Origin: Candidatus Latescibacterota bacterium
GTDB lineage: Bacteria; JAAXHH01; JABIQT01
Length of the DNA stretch: 8,841 nt
Assembly (NCBI GenBank): GCA_018667995.1
Contig: JABIQT010000384.1
Location: forward strand, 1 to 8,841
Direction: 5' to 3'
Part shown: piece after piece, positions 1,472 through 8,841 of the stretch
Layout: each line of letters opens with the position of its first letter
Position numbering within the stretch: the first letter of the stretch is position 1
Program-made: the position numbers and the translations under genes
The notes under the pieces: model-generated
Seen by the model: only the letters and a program-made list of their open reading frames with translations
Database searches by the model: none
Told to the model about the DNA's origin: nothing

Positions 1472-2836
1472 TTAACCTAGGACCTGTTCCTTCAGTCTGA
1501 AATTACCCGGACCACCCATCGCTTCGTACCCCTCGTCTTGCTTCAGGTAGGCTTGCTCTACGGGTAGAACCACGGCCTTCTTCTGCTCGATGCTCGCTTT
1601 TATTTCGGGATAGTATTTTATCAGAAAAGTCTTGATCGGCCAAACAGCTGGAGCCATCCCAAAGGGGCAAACCGTTCTGCCATGGATCTGCACGCAAATA
1701 TCAAGCAGCAACGCAATATCCTCAATGCGTCCATCGCCGTCATGAATCCGGCGCAAAATATCGTTCATCCACGGGGTACCTTCTCGACAGGGCGTACACT
1801 GACCGCATGATTCATGCCGCGCGAAATTTGAGGCGTTAAGCATGACATCAATTATACTTACGGTCTCATCCATTACGATCACGCCGCCAGTGCCTCCCAT
1901 GGTGCCAATACTACCAAGCTTACCCAATTCCATGGTGGTGTCAATTTCATCAGGTGTAAGAACGGGTGCCGAGATACCTCCGGGTATCACGGCTTTGAGT
2001 TGCCTGTCTCCTCGAATACCACCAGCCACATCATAGATCACTTCGCGAAGCGTAATCCCTGGACTGAGCTCGTACAACCCGGGCGATTTCACGTGTCCCG
2101 AAACGCCAATTAAGCGTGTCCCGCTCGTGTCTTCCGTGCCAAGTTTTAAAAACCATTCTGCGCCATTTTTCAGTATGAGTGTCACATCGGAAAAGGTCTC
2201 AACATTATTCAAAATGGTCGGCTGGCCCCATAGACCAACAGCAGCTGGGAAGAAGGGAGGCTTCAAGCGAGGATAAGGGCGGTTGCCCTCAAGCGATTCG
2301 ATAAGTCCTGTTTCCTCCCCGCAGATATAGGCCCCAGCACCGGGATGCGGATAGATGTCAAGACTGAAGTCGGATCCCAAGATATTCTTTCCCAGAAATC
2401 CTTTTTCGCGGGCCTCGAGAAGGCAGTGTTCTACCTGGTCATAAATATGAAAAAACTCGCCGCGCATGTAGATGTAGCCGAGATTGACTCCCAGCGCATA
2501 GGACGTTAGTATCATTCCCTCTATGACCCGATGTGGATCGCCCTCCAACAGCTTGCGATCCTTGAAACTCCCGGGCTCACTTTCATCGGCATTTGCAAGT
2601 ACGTACCTTGGGTACCTGTCGGCACACATACTCCATTTTTGACCCGCAGGAAATCCCGCGCCTCCGCGCCCCTTGATGTTCGCTTCCTTGACGACATTTG
2701 TAACATCGTCAGGGGACATTTCCTTAATGACACGTTTCAGCGTCTCATATCCGCCCTGAGCTATATATTTCTCGATGTTAGCGAGATCGTCATGTTCTTC
2801 TATGGACGGCAAAAGTGCACGTGAGGCATCAGCCAT
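1472..2836 (-). CDS. nuoF: NADH-quinone oxidoreductase subunit F (NuoF), FMN and NADH binding
   Basis: NuoF oxidises NADH with a bound FMN and passes electrons to its [4Fe-4S] cluster N3, the entry point of the complex I chain on the cytoplasmic side. The 454-residue product is a usual length for the family. Visible motifs are the glycine-rich nucleotide loop GRGGAGFPAGQKW (residues 56-68), the FMN/NADH-site stretch NADESEPGSFKDR (82-94), the signature GAGAYICGEE (166-175), and N3 ligands C344, C347 and C350 in SCGQCTPCREG plus C390 in TVCPFG. The ATG lies 6 bases after the nuoE stop with only a weak GGA ribosome site about 10 bases upstream, so translation is probably coupled to nuoE. Nothing is missing or truncated. 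The N-terminal leader of about 20 residues is unremarkable. Confidence 0.98.
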   Translation of the reverse strand: MADASRALLPSIEEHDDLANIEKYIAQGGYETLKRVIKEMSPDDVTNVVKEANIKGRGGAGFPAGQKWSMCADRYPRYVLANADESEPGSFKDRKLLEGDPHRVIEGMILTSYALGVNLGYIYMRGEFFHIYDQVEHCLLEAREKGFLGKNILGSDFSLDIYPHPGAGAYICGEETGLIESLEGNRPYPRLKPPFFPAAVGLWGQPTILNNVETFSDVTLILKNGAEWFLKLGTEDTSGTRLIGVSGHVKSPGLYELSPGITLREVIYDVAGGIRGDRQLKAVIPGGISAPVLTPDEIDTTMELGKLGSIGTMGGTGGVIVMDETVSIIDVMLNASNFARHESCGQCTPCREGTPWMNDILRRIHDGDGRIEDIALLLDICVQIHGRTVCPFGMAPAVWPIKTFLIKYYPEIKASIEQKKAVVLPVEQAYLKQDEGYEAMGGPGNFRLKEQVLG

Positions 2837-2842
2837 GAGGTA

Positions 2843-3322
2843 CTATTCCAACCCTTCGATTATCGTATCGATTTTTTCGGGCGTGAGATGTGTATGGAGC
2901 TCCCGGTTAACCAGCATGACGGGTCCTCGATCGCAAGCTGCCAGGCATTCGATCTTCTTGAGGGTAAAACGACCATCCTCCGTCGTATCACCCACACCGA
3001 TACCAAGTTTCCCAGAAATATGAGTAACAATATCAGAGCAGCCAGCAAGCGCACAGGGCAAGGTATGGCAGACATTTATCAGGTGCCTGCCAACCGGTTC
3101 CTTATTGAACATCGGATAGAATGTAGCAATCTCGGCAACCTTCACTGGCGATTCTTCAATCAGATCCGCCACACAGGACATTGCGTCGGGTGAGATATAC
3201 CCCCACTCCTTCTGTGCAAGGTGAAGTAGCGGCACGACCGCGGCTTTTTTATGCTCTGCCGGGTAGCGGGCCAAGATTTCTTCCGCTCTTTTTTGAGAGT
3301 CTGGTGAAAAAGCCAGCGCCAT
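2843..3322 (-). CDS. nuoE: NADH-quinone oxidoreductase subunit E (NuoE), 24 kDa-type [2Fe-2S] protein
   Basis: NuoE is a thioredoxin-fold [2Fe-2S] protein that pairs with NuoF in the NADH-oxidising module and carries the off-path cluster N1a. The product is 159 residues, normal for the family. It has the helical N-terminal part typical of NuoE (about residues 10-70, including QKEWGYISPDAM) and then the four cluster ligands C85, C90, C126 and C130, in CHTLPC and ECLAACD, followed by the conserved GPVMLVN and LTPEKI segments. The start ATG is four bases after the nuoD stop. AGG lies seven bases upstream of it, inside the end of nuoD, so the ribosome site overlaps the preceding gene. Presence of nuoE and nuoF shows a true NADH-dependent complex I rather than the 11-subunit ferredoxin-type form. 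Confidence 0.97.
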   Translation of the reverse strand: MALAFSPDSQKRAEEILARYPAEHKKAAVVPLLHLAQKEWGYISPDAMSCVADLIEESPVKVAEIATFYPMFNKEPVGRHLINVCHTLPCALAGCSDIVTHISGKLGIGVGDTTEDGRFTLKKIECLAACDRGPVMLVNRELHTHLTPEKIDTIIEGLE

Positions 3323-3326
3323 TTAG

Positions 3327-4616
3327 CTACCTGTCCAGTTCGCCTGCGATGATATTCATGCTGCCCAGAATCGCGACTACATCGGCCAGCATATGTCCCG
3401 GCACCAACTTCGGGAACATAGAAAAATGAAACAGCGACGGGGGCCTAACTCTGAGCCTATAGGGATGACGACTCCCATCACTCACGATGTAAAAACCTAG
3501 TTCGCCATTGGGCGCCTCGGTACTCGAATACACCTCACCGGGCTCCGGTAGAGGGCCGTGTCCCTCCATGGTCAACTTAAAATGATATATGAGTGATTCC
3601 ATGGACTCGTAAACTTCGGCTTTTGTAGGGATCACCGTATGATCTTCGTCCGAGCTAATTGGACCATCTGGGATCTTGTCAATAATCTGCCGAACGATCT
3701 TTATGCTCTGTCGCATCTCCTCCATACGTACCAGGTACCTATCATAGACATCGCCGTTTTCACCAATGACAACATCGAAGTCCAACTGGTCGTAAATGAG
3801 GTAAGGCTCGTTTTTGCGCAAATCCCAATCCACTCCGGAAGCTCTGAGGATTGGGCCGGTGGCGCCAAATCCCAAGGCATCGTCTGCTGAAACCACACCG
3901 ACTCCCTGAGTACGATCACGCCAGATACGATTGTGCGTGAGCAGTTTATCGATCTCATCAATAGACCGATCGCACTCAATAAGGGCCTTTCCCACGATTT
4001 CCTGAAAGTTCGGCGGGACATCTCGTAGCAGACCACCAACTCGCGTATAGCTGGTAGTGAGACGGGTGCCGGTAACTGCCTCAAAAACATCATAGAGTTC
4101 CTCACGAGCACGAAAGCCGTAAAGAAACGCCGTAAAGGCACCAATATCGAGAGCGGCCGTTCCCACACAAACAAGGTGATCCGCAAGACGGGACAGCTCT
4201 GCCAAAATTGTTCGGATGTATTCGGTTCTCGGGGTAAGGGTAATGCCCATCAACTTCTCGACCGCAGTCGCGAAACCGATATTGTTCGAGAGCGGCGACA
4301 GGTAGTTCATTCTATCGGAGAGCGCCACAAATTGATTATAGCTACGGTGCTCGCCGATCTTCTCGAATCCGGTATGCAGATAACCTATGTGGGGAGTGAC
4401 CTTAACAATGCGTTCGCCGTCAAGTTCCAATACCATATGCAACGTGCCATGCGTTGCGGGGTGCTGCGGACCGAAATTGAGCGTCATAGTCTCGGTCGGC
4501 ATATCAGGCACCGTCTTGAACTGTGCACGCTCGTTGCGCAACTTTTCAAGATCATCCTGGTCGAGACTGTCTATCTTTGCATCGGTTGCATTCATATACA
4601 AATAACCTGAACCCAT
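3327..4616 (-). CDS. nuoD: NADH-quinone oxidoreductase subunit D (NuoD), 49 kDa-type quinone-site subunit
   Basis: NuoD forms most of the quinone-binding pocket together with NuoB, at the junction of the peripheral arm and the membrane. The 429-residue product carries the family signature NFGPQHPATHG (47-57), PHIGYLHTGFEK (75-86) and the conserved terminal GELDR. H56 and Y105 are 49 residues apart, the same spacing as the quinone-headgroup His and Tyr of the characterised 49 kDa subunits, so the pocket looks intact. The chosen ATG lies 12 bases after nuoC but has no clear ribosome site. An in-frame ATG at 4595 (residue 8) has AGG ten bases upstream and is a credible alternative start; either choice leaves the domain untouched. 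nuoC and nuoD are separate genes here, unlike the nuoCD fusion of enterobacteria. Confidence 0.97.
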   Translation of the reverse strand: MGSGYLYMNATDAKIDSLDQDDLEKLRNERAQFKTVPDMPTETMTLNFGPQHPATHGTLHMVLELDGERIVKVTPHIGYLHTGFEKIGEHRSYNQFVALSDRMNYLSPLSNNIGFATAVEKLMGITLTPRTEYIRTILAELSRLADHLVCVGTAALDIGAFTAFLYGFRAREELYDVFEAVTGTRLTTSYTRVGGLLRDVPPNFQEIVGKALIECDRSIDEIDKLLTHNRIWRDRTQGVGVVSADDALGFGATGPILRASGVDWDLRKNEPYLIYDQLDFDVVIGENGDVYDRYLVRMEEMRQSIKIVRQIIDKIPDGPISSDEDHTVIPTKAEVYESMESLIYHFKLTMEGHGPLPEPGEVYSSTEAPNGELGFYIVSDGSRHPYRLRVRPPSLFHFSMFPKLVPGHMLADVVAILGSMNIIAGELDR

Positions 4617-4628
4617 TCGGTTCGGAAT

Positions 4629-5174
4629 CTAAAATGCGAAATTATCACGCTCACCGTTGCCGTGGAGTGGATAGTCTTTGCGGAGGGGATGTGCTCCAAA
4701 ATCATCAGGCATCACCAGACGACGAAGGTCAGGGTGGCCTTCGAATTCTATACCGTATAGATCGTATACTTCACGCTCCATCCAGTCAGCCGCAGGCCAG
4801 ACAGATGCAGCAGATCCCACTACTGGATCCGACTCGGGAACGGGTACCTTAATACGGATTCTCTGATTAGAAAGGTGGGAATGAAGATGGTAGACCACAG
4901 CGAAACGCACATCCTCATCGAGATATAGACGATCCACTGCTGTCAGATCACAGAGTCTGGTGAAAGGAGTCGAAGATTCATCCTTCAGGAACCGAAGCAC
5001 CGCAATGATGGCGGATCGTTCAACAGTGACCGTTTCTTCGGATAGTGCGTCCTGATAATCGAGCACTGCATCGGAAAAATGCTCTTTGAGCTCGCGGACC
5101 GTGCCACTGGACGAATCGACTACTGCTTCTTCCACGATAGCCTCTTCTACCTCTATTTTCTCGTTATCCGCCAT
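4629..5174 (-). CDS. nuoC: NADH-quinone oxidoreductase subunit C (NuoC), 30 kDa-type
   Basis: NuoC is a cofactor-free structural subunit of the connecting module, packed against NuoD and NuoB. With the start at ATG 5174 the product has 181 residues. The family signature is the stretch around WMEREVYDLYGIEFEGHP (131-148), followed by LRRLVMPDDF and HPLRKDYPL (162-170), all well conserved. The frame is open further upstream to an ATG at 5225, which would add 17 residues and overlap pyrE by 49 bases. The downstream ATG was preferred because it lies just two bases after the pyrE stop, matching the tight packing of the operon. The first 24 residues are strongly acidic (EKIEVEEAIVEEAVVD) and lie outside the conserved domain, so they are probably a disordered tail. 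The ribosome site is weak, which suggests coupling to pyrE translation. Confidence 0.95.
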   Translation of the reverse strand: MADNEKIEVEEAIVEEAVVDSSSGTVRELKEHFSDAVLDYQDALSEETVTVERSAIIAVLRFLKDESSTPFTRLCDLTAVDRLYLDEDVRFAVVYHLHSHLSNQRIRIKVPVPESDPVVGSAASVWPAADWMEREVYDLYGIEFEGHPDLRRLVMPDDFGAHPLRKDYPLHGNGERDNFAF

Positions 5175-5176
5175 TG

Positions 5177-5818
5177 CTACTCGAACCCCATCTTTTCGCC
5201 CCAACCCTTGGGGTCTGATTTCCATCCCAGTGCGATGACCTTTTCTTCGTCCGTAAGATCGCCCCGGTCGCTCATCACATCAAGAATAGCCGTAAAATCA
5301 GAAAGACACCAGCGAGCTACCGATTCTTTGCCAAATGCTTCCTCTGAGGCCGGCAATCCGTATTCAAAAACGGCCGCCACGCCAACGACTTCGCCACCGC
5401 CCTGGCGCACATCCGAAACGGCACTGAGAACGCCGCCACCGGTCGTGATCAGGTCCTCGGTAAAAATCACTCGGGCTCCTTCCGGCAGAACTCCCTCAAT
5501 TTGACGTTCTTTTCCGTATCCCTTCTGTCCAGACCTTACGTATATCATGGGGAGATTCAAACGTTCTGCTACCCACGAGGCAAAAGGAATAGCGGCAGTC
5601 GCGGTACCGGCAATGACATCCGGTTTCAGATCCTGGTCATTGATTATTCCAACCATCCCATCTACGATAGCTGCTCTTTCCTCAGGAAAGGAGATGATAA
5701 GACGATTGTCACAATATATCGGTGAAATTATGCCGGATCGATAATGGTATGGAGCTTCAACATTTATTGTCACGGCACGGATGTTCAGAAGCAGTTCAGC
5801 TATAGATTTCTTATTCAT
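5177..5818 (-). CDS. pyrE: Orotate phosphoribosyltransferase (PyrE) inside the nuo operon
   Basis: PyrE joins orotate and PRPP to make orotidine 5'-monophosphate, the fifth step of de novo pyrimidine synthesis, in the cytoplasm. From ATG 5818 the product has 213 residues, a typical PyrE length. The N-terminal orotate-side segment contains SGIISPIYCDNR (28-39). Next come AGTATAAIPFA (70-80) and the catalytic loop with R95, K99 and K103, YVRSGQKGYGKERQIEG (93-109). The PRPP-binding motif is VIFTEDLITTGGG (117-129). No key residue is obviously missing, so the gene looks functional. The frame also runs upstream to a TTG at 5881, directly abutting the nuoB stop. That would add 21 poorly conserved-looking residues and was rejected as start. 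No strong ribosome site is seen. The stop is two bases before nuoC, so the gene is embedded in the complex I transcript. Confidence 0.94.
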   Translation of the reverse strand: MNKKSIAELLLNIRAVTINVEAPYHYRSGIISPIYCDNRLIISFPEERAAIVDGMVGIINDQDLKPDVIAGTATAAIPFASWVAERLNLPMIYVRSGQKGYGKERQIEGVLPEGARVIFTEDLITTGGGVLSAVSDVRQGGGEVVGVAAVFEYGLPASEEAFGKESVARWCLSDFTAILDVMSDRGDLTDEEKVIALGWKSDPKGWGEKMGFE

Positions 5819-5881
5819 GGGGCGTCTGGTTCTCTGAATTATGGGCGACGTTTTGAACGACTCTTGGGATCTCGACAGCAA

Positions 5882-6352
5882 TTACATGGCTTTAGAAACA
5901 GCCACTTTTTCCTGAACCTTCATCAGAGCTTGGATCACGTTCTCTGGTCGGGGTGGGCATCCAGGAATATATACATCTACTGGAATAAACTGATCCACAC
6001 CTTGAACCAGGGTGTAGGTATTAAATACCCCTCCTGATGATGCACAGGCTCCCATCGATATTACCCATTTGGGCTCGGGCATCTGATCATAGATTTTCTT
6101 TAGTACCGGCATCATCTTTATGGAGACTCTACCCGAGACAATCATTAAATCGGATTGCCTGGGAGAAAATCGAATGGCTTCCGCACCGAACCGCGCCAGG
6201 TCAAATCTTGAGGCAAGTGTAGCCATCAGCTCAATTGCACAACAAGCTGTACCGAACGGCATAGGCCAAAGCGAGTTCTTTCTTGCCCAACCGACGACTT
6301 GATCAACGGTTGTTGTCATCACATGATCGCTAAGTTGATCTTCTAATCCCAT
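5882..6352 (-). CDS. nuoB: NADH-quinone oxidoreductase subunit B (NuoB), PSST-type, cluster N2
   Basis: NuoB carries the terminal [4Fe-4S] cluster N2, which hands electrons to the quinone in the pocket shared with NuoD. From ATG 6352 the product has 156 residues and begins MGLEDQL, a usual NuoB N-terminus. The N2 ligands are the tandem pair C37-C38 in [10 protein letters not shown]103 in [10 protein letters not shown] and C132 in PGCPPRPE, all present. The frame is open to a GTG at 6373, but the ATG fits the family start better. The ATG overlaps the end of nuoA by 10 bases, a typical translational coupling arrangement. The adjacent Cys pair together with the downstream GCPPRP motif separates it from hydrogenase small subunits, and the nuoA/nuoC/nuoD context removes doubt. 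Confidence 0.97.
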
Positions 6353-6693
6353 TCCAAAGCACCCCGTTTCCACTCGTATACGAATCCAACGACGAGCATA
6401 AGGAAAAAGACGCCCATGGCCGCAGCTCCAAACAGGTGGAGGTCCTTGAAAACCACTGCCCAGGGGTACATATATATAATCTCGACATCAAAGAGGATGA
6501 ACAAGATAGCGATCAAATAGAATTTAACAGAGAAATTCTTCCGCGCGGTATCCTGAATCGGTACACCACACTCGTAAGACGCGAGTTTTTCGAAGTATTC
6601 TTTCTTGCGACCAACGAAGGAAGAAAGGGTAATGATGGTCAGTGCCAGTATCACTACAACAATGACGAGGAGTATCAGAGGAAGATAAACCAT
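6343..6693 (-). CDS. nuoA: NADH-quinone oxidoreductase subunit A (NuoA), membrane subunit
   Basis: NuoA is a small membrane subunit at the foot of complex I whose first loop lines the quinone cavity. The 116-residue product has three predicted membrane helices at about residues 2-25, 56-80 and 88-106. The loop after helix 1 contains the conserved YECGVP (40-45) with C42, and helix 2 contains [18 protein letters not shown] (54-71) with the conserved acidic pair D69 and E71. It is the first gene of the operon. ATG 6693 has a weak ribosome site (GGG seven bases upstream in CTGGGCAAAT). Its mRNA leader would be about 74 bases if the candidate promoter at 6774-6801 is used. Length and topology are normal for the family. 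Confidence 0.97.
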
Positions 6694-6773: not shown

Positions 6774-6801
6774 AAAATACGGATGGGGTCTTAAATGTCA
6801 A
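6774..6801 (-). promoter_or_regulatory. Candidate sigma70-type promoter for the nuoA-pyrE-nuoG operon
   Basis: On the minus strand an exact TTGACA (6801-6796) is followed after a 16-base spacer by TATTTT (6779-6774), which matches the -10 consensus at four of six positions. Transcription would begin near 6767 and give a leader of about 74 bases before nuoA. This rests on consensus matching only. The position and orientation suit the operon, but sigma factor preferences of this organism are unknown. Confidence 0.45.
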
Positions 6802-6824
6802 GAGATATTGGGAAGGTATTTATC

Positions 6825-6854
6825 AAAAAAAGAAAGGGGCGTCAACAGCGCCTC
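6825..6854 (-). terminator. Terminator-like hairpin with T tract, minus-strand sense
   Basis: Read on the minus strand, GAGGCG (6854-6849) pairs with CGCCCC (6841-6836) across a 7-base loop, with one internal mismatch. It is followed directly by TTTCTTTTTTT (6835-6825). This is the shape of an intrinsic terminator. It lies upstream of the candidate nuo promoter, so it would not sit in the nuo leader. It could stop antisense transcripts leaving the AsmA-like gene or be a relic of a lost gene. Confidence 0.4.
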
Positions 6855-6856
6855 GC

Positions 6857-6876
6857 GCCGGGGCCTTCCGGCTTTT
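6857..6876 (+). terminator. Short terminator-like hairpin, plus-strand sense
   Basis: GCCGGG (6857-6862) pairs with TCCGGC (6867-6872), including one G-U pair, around a 4-base loop, and is followed by TTTT (6873-6876). The stem is compact and GC-rich but the T run is short, so termination strength is uncertain. It would block rightward read-through just before the candidate promoter of the AsmA-like gene. No plus-strand gene precedes it in the window. Confidence 0.3.
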
Positions 6877-6879
6877 GTA

Positions 6880-6908
6880 TTGACAAGATTTGCACCAACG
6901 TTTAGACT
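6880..6908 (+). promoter_or_regulatory. Candidate sigma70-type promoter for the AsmA-like gene
   Basis: An exact TTGACA (6880-6885) is followed after 17 bases by TAGACT (6903-6908), four of six matches to the -10 consensus. The predicted start near 6915 leaves an untranslated leader of about 75 bases. The support is consensus matching and location. A weaker alternative, TTGCCA at 6908-6913 with an AT-rich stretch near 6932, cannot be excluded. Confidence 0.4.
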
Positions 6909-6971
6909 TGCCATAACTTTTTTAACAGGTGTAATTTATGTTCATTTTGCGAAGCCATTTCACCCTCCATT

Positions 6972-6977
6972 AAGGAG
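6972..6977 (+). promoter_or_regulatory. Ribosome binding site of the AsmA-like gene
   Basis: AAGGAG is a near-perfect Shine-Dalgarno sequence, the strongest in the window, 13 bases before ATG 6991. The spacing is longer than usual. A TAA in the same frame at 6970-6972 closes the frame upstream, and no ATG, GTG or TTG lies closer in frame, so 6991 remains the best start. Confidence 0.65.
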
Positions 6978-6990
6978 AACATCTCTGGCC

Positions 6991-8841
6991 ATGAAGAAGT
7001 CCCTCATCGCAATGTCGCTTGCCGTGCTACTGGCGGTGACACTTCCGCTGGCAATTCTTAAACTTGCATACCCGCCTGAGTACCTCAAGGATGTTGTATT
7101 GCTGGAGGCCGGTAGGCGTTTGAAGAGGGAGATCGCGATCCAGGATGTTTCCTTGCAGGTCCTCCCAAGTATCGGAATCCGCGTATCAGGGGTTGAAGTA
7201 TTCGAGGCAGAAGGAGCACAGCCGCGAGAGGCCTCGATCCGGCTCGGAAGTTTTCTGATGAGCTTGGAGATTTTACCGTTGTTGAACCAACAATTGGTCA
7301 TCAATGAATTTGTGCTCTCAGCACCAGCGATTAATCTGCTCGTAACAGCAGAAGGATCCAGTCTAGACGGCCTGTTTGGCGGCGAGATCGATGAAGAAGC
7401 TTCATCCGCTTCAACCGCAGGGGAAGCATCAGCTCTCGACGTTGACGTTCATCACATTCGTATTAATGACGGCGAATTCAACTTTAAGGACTCGGCCACT
7501 GGAACTATCGTTGAAGTGGCCAAAATAGAGATCAATTCCGGATTGACGCTCAAAGACAACGGAAATCAACTCGACTTTGTCGGCTTTCTACGCGCCGGAA
7601 CGATCCGCTACTCATCAATTGATACGCAGGTTGAGGATATAACCTGTGCGTTGGATTTTGATGTAGGGGTCGACTACTCGTCCGACACTATAGTAATTAA
7701 GAATACCACAGTATCGTTCAATGAACTTCCTCTGCTGCTGAATGGAGATATTGAGGGATTTCAGTCCGAAAATCCCAATTATTCCCTTGTTTACAAGTCA
7801 AACGCCTTGACCCTACAGGCACTTCTCGCGGCAATACCGGAGGACATAATTGATGAGAGGGATGTGGGATCGGGGGACGGACAGATCAGTATATCCGGAT
7901 CCGTCTCAGGAGTAATGGGAAGCTCCGAGGCCCCAAACATAGAGACCGATTTGACAATAACTGATGTGCGGTATGATGCACCTGGATTACCGGTTTCGAT
8001 TGCCGATGCCAATGGAGATTTCAGCTTAAATCAAGGTATGATTGGACTGGACGGATTCAGCGCTAGACTTGGTCGCTCTGACGTCGCCATCTCAGCCAGT
8101 TACGGTCCGATCCAGCAAGGAGCGTCGTCGATATCATCTCCATCGTTGCGCGCGGAGATCTCGTCCCAGTATCTCGACCTGGATGAACTGGTTCCAGCTG
8201 TCGAGGAGCCTGAGGGTCCGACTCCATATGAACCAATGCCGGATATAGCCATATCGGCAGGATTCTCGGGTAGCAAAGTAATGCTCCGCGGTATTGAAAT
8301 GAGTGATCTGAAACTAACGGCTACAGCGGGAGATCAGATACTGAGATTGACAGATATTAACGCCAGAATGTACGGGGGATCGTTTACCGGATCGATCGTT
8401 CAGGACTTAACCGATATCTCAAAGCCGGCGGTACAGGTGGACGCTCGCATGAGCGAATTGGCGACAGGTGACATTATCTCTGAATTCCTACCCATTGGAA
8501 AATCACTGAATGGCACTCTCTCATCCACAATCTCCGCATCCACAATTCTTGATCAGCTGGGAAATCCGGTGGATCAAGCACTGAATGGTTTTGGGGACTT
8601 GGCCGTCAGTGAAGGCAAAATCATGAACTGGCCTCCATTTCAGAAAATGGCTGGTTTCCTGAAGCTCAAGAATAGTGAAGCGATCAACTTTCAGTCACTT
8701 ACCGGTGGATTCAGAGTCGACAATGGCAGATTGATCACACCGGATTTGACGATGGTAGGACCGGTCGGCAAATGGAATATTGAGGGCTCTGCAGGCCTGG
8801 ATGGTTCCCTTTCATTTGCTGTGTTGACAGAGTTGCCGGCG
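6991..8841 (+). CDS. AsmA-family envelope protein, C-terminus cut by window edge
   Basis: AsmA-family proteins are inner-membrane-anchored periplasmic proteins of diderm bacteria; characterised members are implicated in outer-membrane homeostasis and phospholipid transport between membranes. 617 codons are visible with no stop before the right edge. Residues 4-26 form one hydrophobic signal-anchor after MKK. Then comes the typical AsmA start, with PEYLKDVVLLEAGRRLKREI (29-48) and VLPSIGIRVSGVEV (57-70). The rest is rich in alternating beta-strand patterns, broken by an Ala/Ser/Glu-rich linker (about 131-149) and a Pro/Glu-rich linker (402-416). From about residue 440 the sequence fits the AsmA C-terminal region, for example LTDINARMYGGSFTGSI (453-469), an LNGTL segment (506-510) and FRVDNGRLITPDLTMVGPVG (574-593). 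It is transcribed away from nuoA. The family call is good; the specific role and full length are unknown. Confidence 0.85.
   Translation, partial: MKKSLIAMSLAVLLAVTLPLAILKLAYPPEYLKDVVLLEAGRRLKREIAIQDVSLQVLPSIGIRVSGVEVFEAEGAQPREASIRLGSFLMSLEILPLLNQQLVINEFVLSAPAINLLVTAEGSSLDGLFGGEIDEEASSASTAGEASALDVDVHHIRINDGEFNFKDSATGTIVEVAKIEINSGLTLKDNGNQLDFVGFLRAGTIRYSSIDTQVEDITCALDFDVGVDYSSDTIVIKNTTVSFNELPLLLNGDIEGFQSENPNYSLVYKSNALTLQALLAAIPEDIIDERDVGSGDGQISISGSVSGVMGSSEAPNIETDLTITDVRYDAPGLPVSIADANGDFSLNQGMIGLDGFSARLGRSDVAISASYGPIQQGASSISSPSLRAEISSQYLDLDELVPAVEEPEGPTPYEPMPDIAISAGFSGSKVMLRGIEMSDLKLTATAGDQILRLTDINARMYGGSFTGSIVQDLTDISKPAVQVDARMSELATGDIISEFLPIGKSLNGTLSSTISASTILDQLGNPVDQALNGFGDLAVSEGKIMNWPPFQKMAGFLKLKNSEAINFQSLTGGFRVDNGRLITPDLTMVGPVGKWNIEGSAGLDGSLSFAVLTELPA

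Follow-up and report, generated by a model that had tools for sequence, protein, structure and literature searches.

Introduction

The 14-gene nuo operon (nuoA to nuoN), which encodes complex I, is among the most conserved of bacterial operons and has no pyrE; the gene for orotate phosphoribosyltransferase (OPRT) normally stands alone or within pyr operons. The complex I gene cluster of Rhodothermus marinus reportedly contains homologues of nhaD and pcd, and replacement of complex I by Na+-NQR is a further known situation to which the present locus can be compared. Here we describe a window of 8,841 nucleotides, the whole stretch of DNA analyzed, in which the set, order and strand of nuoA-B-C-D-E-F-G are those of the canonical operon (nuoH onward being present in relatives), but a complete pyrE stands between nuoB and nuoC. 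A literature search whose coverage left most subscription journals outside found no earlier description of pyrE in a nuo operon.

The window belongs to a metagenome-assembled genome (MAG; G000, 6,060,494 bases, 85% complete) of phylum JAAXHH01, which is probably Candidatus Ifutiota. A review equates that name with JAAXHH01 and gives genomes of 3.06 to 6.06 Mb from freshwater and marine metagenomes, sponge tissue and hypoxic seawater (PMC11382960). Our phylum set comprised 16 genomes, all MAGs, distributed over five genera in three families of a single order, and accession JAAXHH01 occurs among the contigs of this group.

Results

The genes on the minus strand of the window run nuoA-nuoB-pyrE-nuoC-nuoD-nuoE-nuoF-nuoG, the last of them partial, and all are co-directional (Table 1). 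An earlier note on this DNA had placed an intact pyrE at 5177 to 5818, two bases before nuoC, and both the coordinates and the gap are correct: the pyrE stop is followed by the nuoC ATG at 5174. The identity given there also stands, as the 213-residue product scores 118 bits against TIGR00336 in an NCBIfam profile search (curated cut-off 106.8), which makes it a member of the PyrE family; NF001729 is matched as well, below that profile's own cut-off. Crystallized OPRTs (3m3h, E 7.6e-49; also 3dez) can be aligned with almost the entire protein, and alignment with the solved enzymes shows that SPIYCDNR, RSGQKGYGKE and EDLITTGGG are kept. The PRPP-binding motif VIFTEDLITTGGG and the flexible catalytic loop RSGQKGYGKE are largely invariant in 11 relatives. 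By profile and motifs, then, the gene encodes an ordinary orotate phosphoribosyltransferase with predicted activity.

Table 1. Features of the nuo-pyrE locus, in order of transcription
Feature	Position	Strand	Basis and remarks
Putative nuo operon promoter, TTGACA-16 nt-TATTTT	6774..6801	-	Promoter scan and conserved position; function putative
nuoA	6343..6693	-	PF00507, 1.4e-34; NF005922
nuoB	5882..6352	-	TIGR01957, 235 bits; probable ATG start at 6352, ORF open from GTG 6373
nuoB-pyrE spacer, 63 nt	5819..5881	-	In pyrE frame; 1-nt stop-start overlap instead in 13/16 genomes
pyrE, orotate phosphoribosyltransferase	5177..5818	-	TIGR00336 above cut-off; PDB relatives; orthologues at same locus in 16/16 genomes
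nuoC	4629..5174	-	TIGR01961, 145 bits; ATG two bases past pyrE stop
nuoD	3327..4616	-	TIGR01962, 527 bits
nuoE	2843..3322	-	TIGR01958, 175 bits
nuoF	1472..2836	-	NF010120, 435 bits, above cut-off
nuoG, cut by contig end	3..1469	-	TIGR01973, 453 bits over part present

The order nuoA-B-pyrE-C-D occurs in 15 of the 16 phylum genomes, the exception being a marine MAG (G001), and in all 15 that have the operon pyrE interrupts the canonical nuoB-nuoC adjacency. NuoB and PyrE-family matches lay within 3 kb of each other in none of 78 outside genomes having both (a breadth-first sample), a zero that is strong but non-exhaustive, given fragmented contigs and weak PyrE-family matches that may be other phosphoribosyltransferases. 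Widening the distance to 12 kb brought in one of the 78 (G066), versus 15/15 in the phylum. The nearest outside PyrE relatives (33 to 47% identity) have no nuo genes within about 1.5 kb on either side. The nuoB-pyrE-nuoC order is real, fixed and clade defining. Assembly error in one genome and chance were rejected because 15 assemblies carry the same order, which also disposes of the earlier note's proviso that the arrangement might be confined to one poor assembly, and its description of the order as unusual is upheld by the contrast between phylum and outside genomes. The phylum PyrE proteins form one clade, the internal order of which (G000 with G015, G014, the sponge genus) agrees with the NuoD tree where both exist. 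This agreement argues that the insertion was inherited vertically, and the comparison indicates a single ancient insertion of pyrE followed by vertical descent. The second pyrE that the earlier note proposed to look for is absent from 15 genomes, each with one copy, and present only in G001, which has two.

In G066, which is unrelated to the phylum, a PyrE-like phosphoribosyltransferase gene is located some 11 kb downstream from nuoB (L110 11960-12568, G066:C46). This is a second, independent proximity of such a gene and nuoB, and it was rejected as an outside example of nuoB-pyrE-nuoC because the gene appears to lie beyond the nuo cluster. G015 has a second nuoA-B-C-D cluster (L088 9454-12139, G015:C300; 44 to 55% identity) without pyrE. 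Two dihydroorotate dehydrogenases, of class 2 and class 1B, are encoded in G000 (L064, L087; C901, C512), and the sponge genus shows the same pair of matches.

The junctions of pyrE with its neighbors vary within the phylum. Reading upstream, the pyrE frame of the window stays open as far as the stop of nuoB, and TTG at 5881 is a possible alternative start. All 12 genomes of the sponge genus, and G001 as well, have a stop-start overlap between nuoB and pyrE (TAATG or TGATG), whereas spacers occur in G000 (63 nt), G014 (about 25-31 nt) and G015 (about 60 nt), the pyrE starts of the latter two being uncertain. On this division, the overlap is most likely a derived state of one sub-branch. The nuoC start falls about 0-13 nt from the pyrE stop in nearly all genomes. 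An Rfam scan of the window found no RNA family, and a regulatory RNA in the window was therefore rejected. G000 and G015 have an AsmA-like gene as the divergent neighbor of nuoA (window 6808-8841; L085 1-1274), and the sponge genus has mtnP there, with mtnP also upstream in G001, indicating that the upstream flank has been rearranged.

The alignment of all 15 genomes with nuo places a promoter-like element, TTGACA-16-TATYTT, 104-111 nt before nuoA. Chance alone is expected to give 2.4-3.4 such matches per scan, and it is the conserved position that argues for function.

The marine MAG that departs from the common order consists of 410 contigs (97% complete, 6% contamination). Across this whole genome NuoB was matched only by a C-terminal relic, the last 34 codons of nuoB, directly preceding an intact pyrE; no NuoD orthologue was found, the sole piece being 53 residues at a chimeric-looking contig end; and NuoF was matched only by 40% paralogues, which other genomes also have, with no orthologue. 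PhyH-like and MtnP-like genes lie upstream of the relic, as they do before nuoA in the sponge genomes. Downstream of pyrE, one methyltransferase gene is followed by ispB-like, glycosyltransferase, radical-SAM, glycosyltransferase and ABC genes. The series from ispB-like to ABC follows nuoN in G006, and G012 has relatives of these genes in matching order. A search of the stretch from pyrE to ispB gave no residual similarity to nuoC-nuoN. Since both flanks are syntenic with the nuo region of relatives, pyrE in G001 occupies its ancestral site, with nuo genes removed on both sides, and transposition of pyrE out of nuo was rejected because both flanks are ancestral. By its anatomy the locus is a natural deletion, which left the putative nuo promoter, part of the leader, the nuoB tail and an intact pyrE.

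The deletion point itself bears on expression. The TTGACA-16-TATYTT element also precedes the nuoB relic, as does the leader GGATAGAT-TAC, which in relatives lies upstream of nuoA, and the leader alignment (GGATAGATCTAC versus GGATAGATGTAC in G001) runs up to the deletion point. The deletion thus brought the putative nuo promoter and its leader up against the nuoB tail and pyrE. This join is the best evidence, comparative in kind, that pyrE may be read from the nuo promoter; a new pyrE promoter in G001 was rejected in favor of the old one because the element and leader match those upstream of nuoA. The earlier note's expectation of co-transcription gains comparative support from promoter conservation, gene spacing and the anatomy of G001.

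Of the 34 codons of the relic, 14-19 differ synonymously and 5-6 non-synonymously from those of relatives, and intact nuoB copies differ among themselves at 0-4 non-synonymous codons. Because the differences are mostly synonymous, the deletion may have happened too recently for maintenance to be tested: the tail could be retained for the translation of pyrE, or could be there only because it is young. The deletion argument comes from this one genome. Elsewhere in G001, the end of contig C46 (L084 4947-5884) holds nuoD C-terminal and nuoE N-terminal fragments (57% and 32% identity) that run into unrelated sequence, and it has the look of a chimeric assembly or of contamination. The second G001 PyrE (L111 6159-6695, G001:C34), a divergent protein of 178 aa from another subfamily (TIGR00336, 133 bits), is without counterpart in the other 15 genomes and was possibly acquired around the time of complex I loss; its contig looks native by composition, and the DapF encoded there has 53-57% relatives in G000 and G014. 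This second copy may make the pyrE of the nuo site partly redundant, so that the keeping of that gene need not imply that it is indispensable.

G001 carries a complete nqrABCDEF-apbE cluster with a full-length NqrF (687 bits), and NqrF was above cut-off in none of the other 15 phylum genomes. The nqr contig looks native, in that orthologues of its McsB (57-65%) occur throughout most of the phylum and its tetranucleotide profile agrees with those of other G001 contigs. The presence of nqr together with the absence of nuo orthologues makes it very likely that this lineage exchanged complex I for Na+-NQR.

Discussion

Starting from what is directly observed (gene order, distribution, congruent trees, deletion anatomy, the presence of nqr and conservation of the promoter-like element), we consider it probable that pyrE is a passenger of the nuo transcript, held by expression signals and independent of complex I in function. 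A single insertion between nuoB and nuoC would predate the phylum's last common ancestor, with inheritance at that site ever since, and pyrE would be transcribed from the promoter that precedes nuoA, presumably as part of a single transcript. In the larger sub-branch it probably also needs nuoB translation, to which the TAATG/TGATG overlap may couple it. Selection would have kept pyrE in place because moving it would mean loss of its expression signals, rather than because OPRT and complex I cooperate. When the marine lineage swapped complex I for Na+-NQR, deletions would have removed the nuo genes on either side of pyrE and spared the promoter, part of the leader, the nuoB tail and pyrE. The 63-nt spacer of the window, in place of an overlap, speaks against this reading. 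The earlier note had offered, as one option, a neutral insertion retained because nuoC translation became coupled to it; that option fits better than the quinone idea raised beside it, but the coupling is not only a dependence of nuoC on pyrE. It would lie mainly in the dependence of pyrE on nuo signals, namely the promoter and, in 13 of 16 genomes, the overlap with nuoB.

Alternatively, the position of pyrE could be an adaptive link in which the respiratory promoter and nuoB translation set pyrimidine synthesis, the unit being preserved through the Na+-NQR swap; we regard this as unlikely. Two more specific forms of metabolic coupling turn on the type of dihydroorotate dehydrogenase. If PyrD 1B produces NADH that complex I or Na+-NQR reoxidizes, pyrE expression might be tied to NADH-oxidizing capacity. 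All four genomes examined for it (G000, G001, G014 and G015) proved to encode this NAD-type enzyme (PyrD 1B/NF005574), weaker matches of the 1B kind occur in all 16, and G001 has kept an NADH:quinone oxidoreductase of another type. However, the operon contains pyrE and not pyrD or pyrK, pyrE stayed put after the NQR swap instead of joining nqr, and pyrimidine synthesis contributes only a minor NADH flux, and we judge the idea to be quite improbable. The earlier note had instead reasoned that class-2 PyrD reduces quinone, such that co-expression of pyrE with complex I would match orotate use to respiratory capacity. Its proposed look at the pyrD class gave a divided answer: the window genome and the sponge genus do have class 2 (10 above cut-off, 3 more as split pieces), but G014 (99% complete), G015 and G001 have only the 1B type and yet carry pyrE at the nuo locus. 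Absence of the enzyme from G014 and G015, both carriers of the arrangement, led us to reject quinone coupling as a shared cause, and with pyrD lying outside the nuo operon and pyrE retained in G001 after loss of complex I, we find the rationale unsupported and very improbable.

We give the least credence, and very little, to the view that the G001 scar is an artefact of a chimeric contig or of missing bin members, in which case the insertion alone would be real and nothing could be said of independence from complex I. The 410 contigs, the 6% contamination and the chimeric-looking end of C46 make the question a fair one, but an artefact would have to accommodate two pyrE flanks that match the two ends of the relatives' nuo region, a promoter and leader match at the junction, the absence of three different Nuo subunits and an nqrF above cut-off in this genome only.

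As a probable passenger of the nuo transcript, pyrE offers a natural experiment on why unrelated genes persist in operons, combining a phylum-wide insertion with the loss of the host operon in a single lineage. The unusually clear scar in G001, very likely a case of complex I exchanged for Na+-NQR, indicates that a passenger and its borrowed promoter can outlive the operon, and the nuoB-pyrE-nuoC order can serve as a marker for the candidate phylum. The relevance is to operon evolution; neither a new biochemical system nor a new kind of system is involved.

Measured against known systems, the window PyrE shares active-site motifs and a near full-length alignment with the solved proteins 3m3h and 3dez and differs from them in genomic setting. 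The Rhodothermus marinus complex I cluster reportedly likewise houses a gene unrelated to complex I, with different inserted genes in a different lineage. Departure from the canonical nuo operon goes furthest in G001, where the nuo genes are deleted around pyrE. As in other replacements of complex I by Na+-NQR, this genome has nqrABCDEF-apbE and no complex I orthologues were found in it; here, however, the replaced operon appears to have left a passenger gene and a promoter at the original site.
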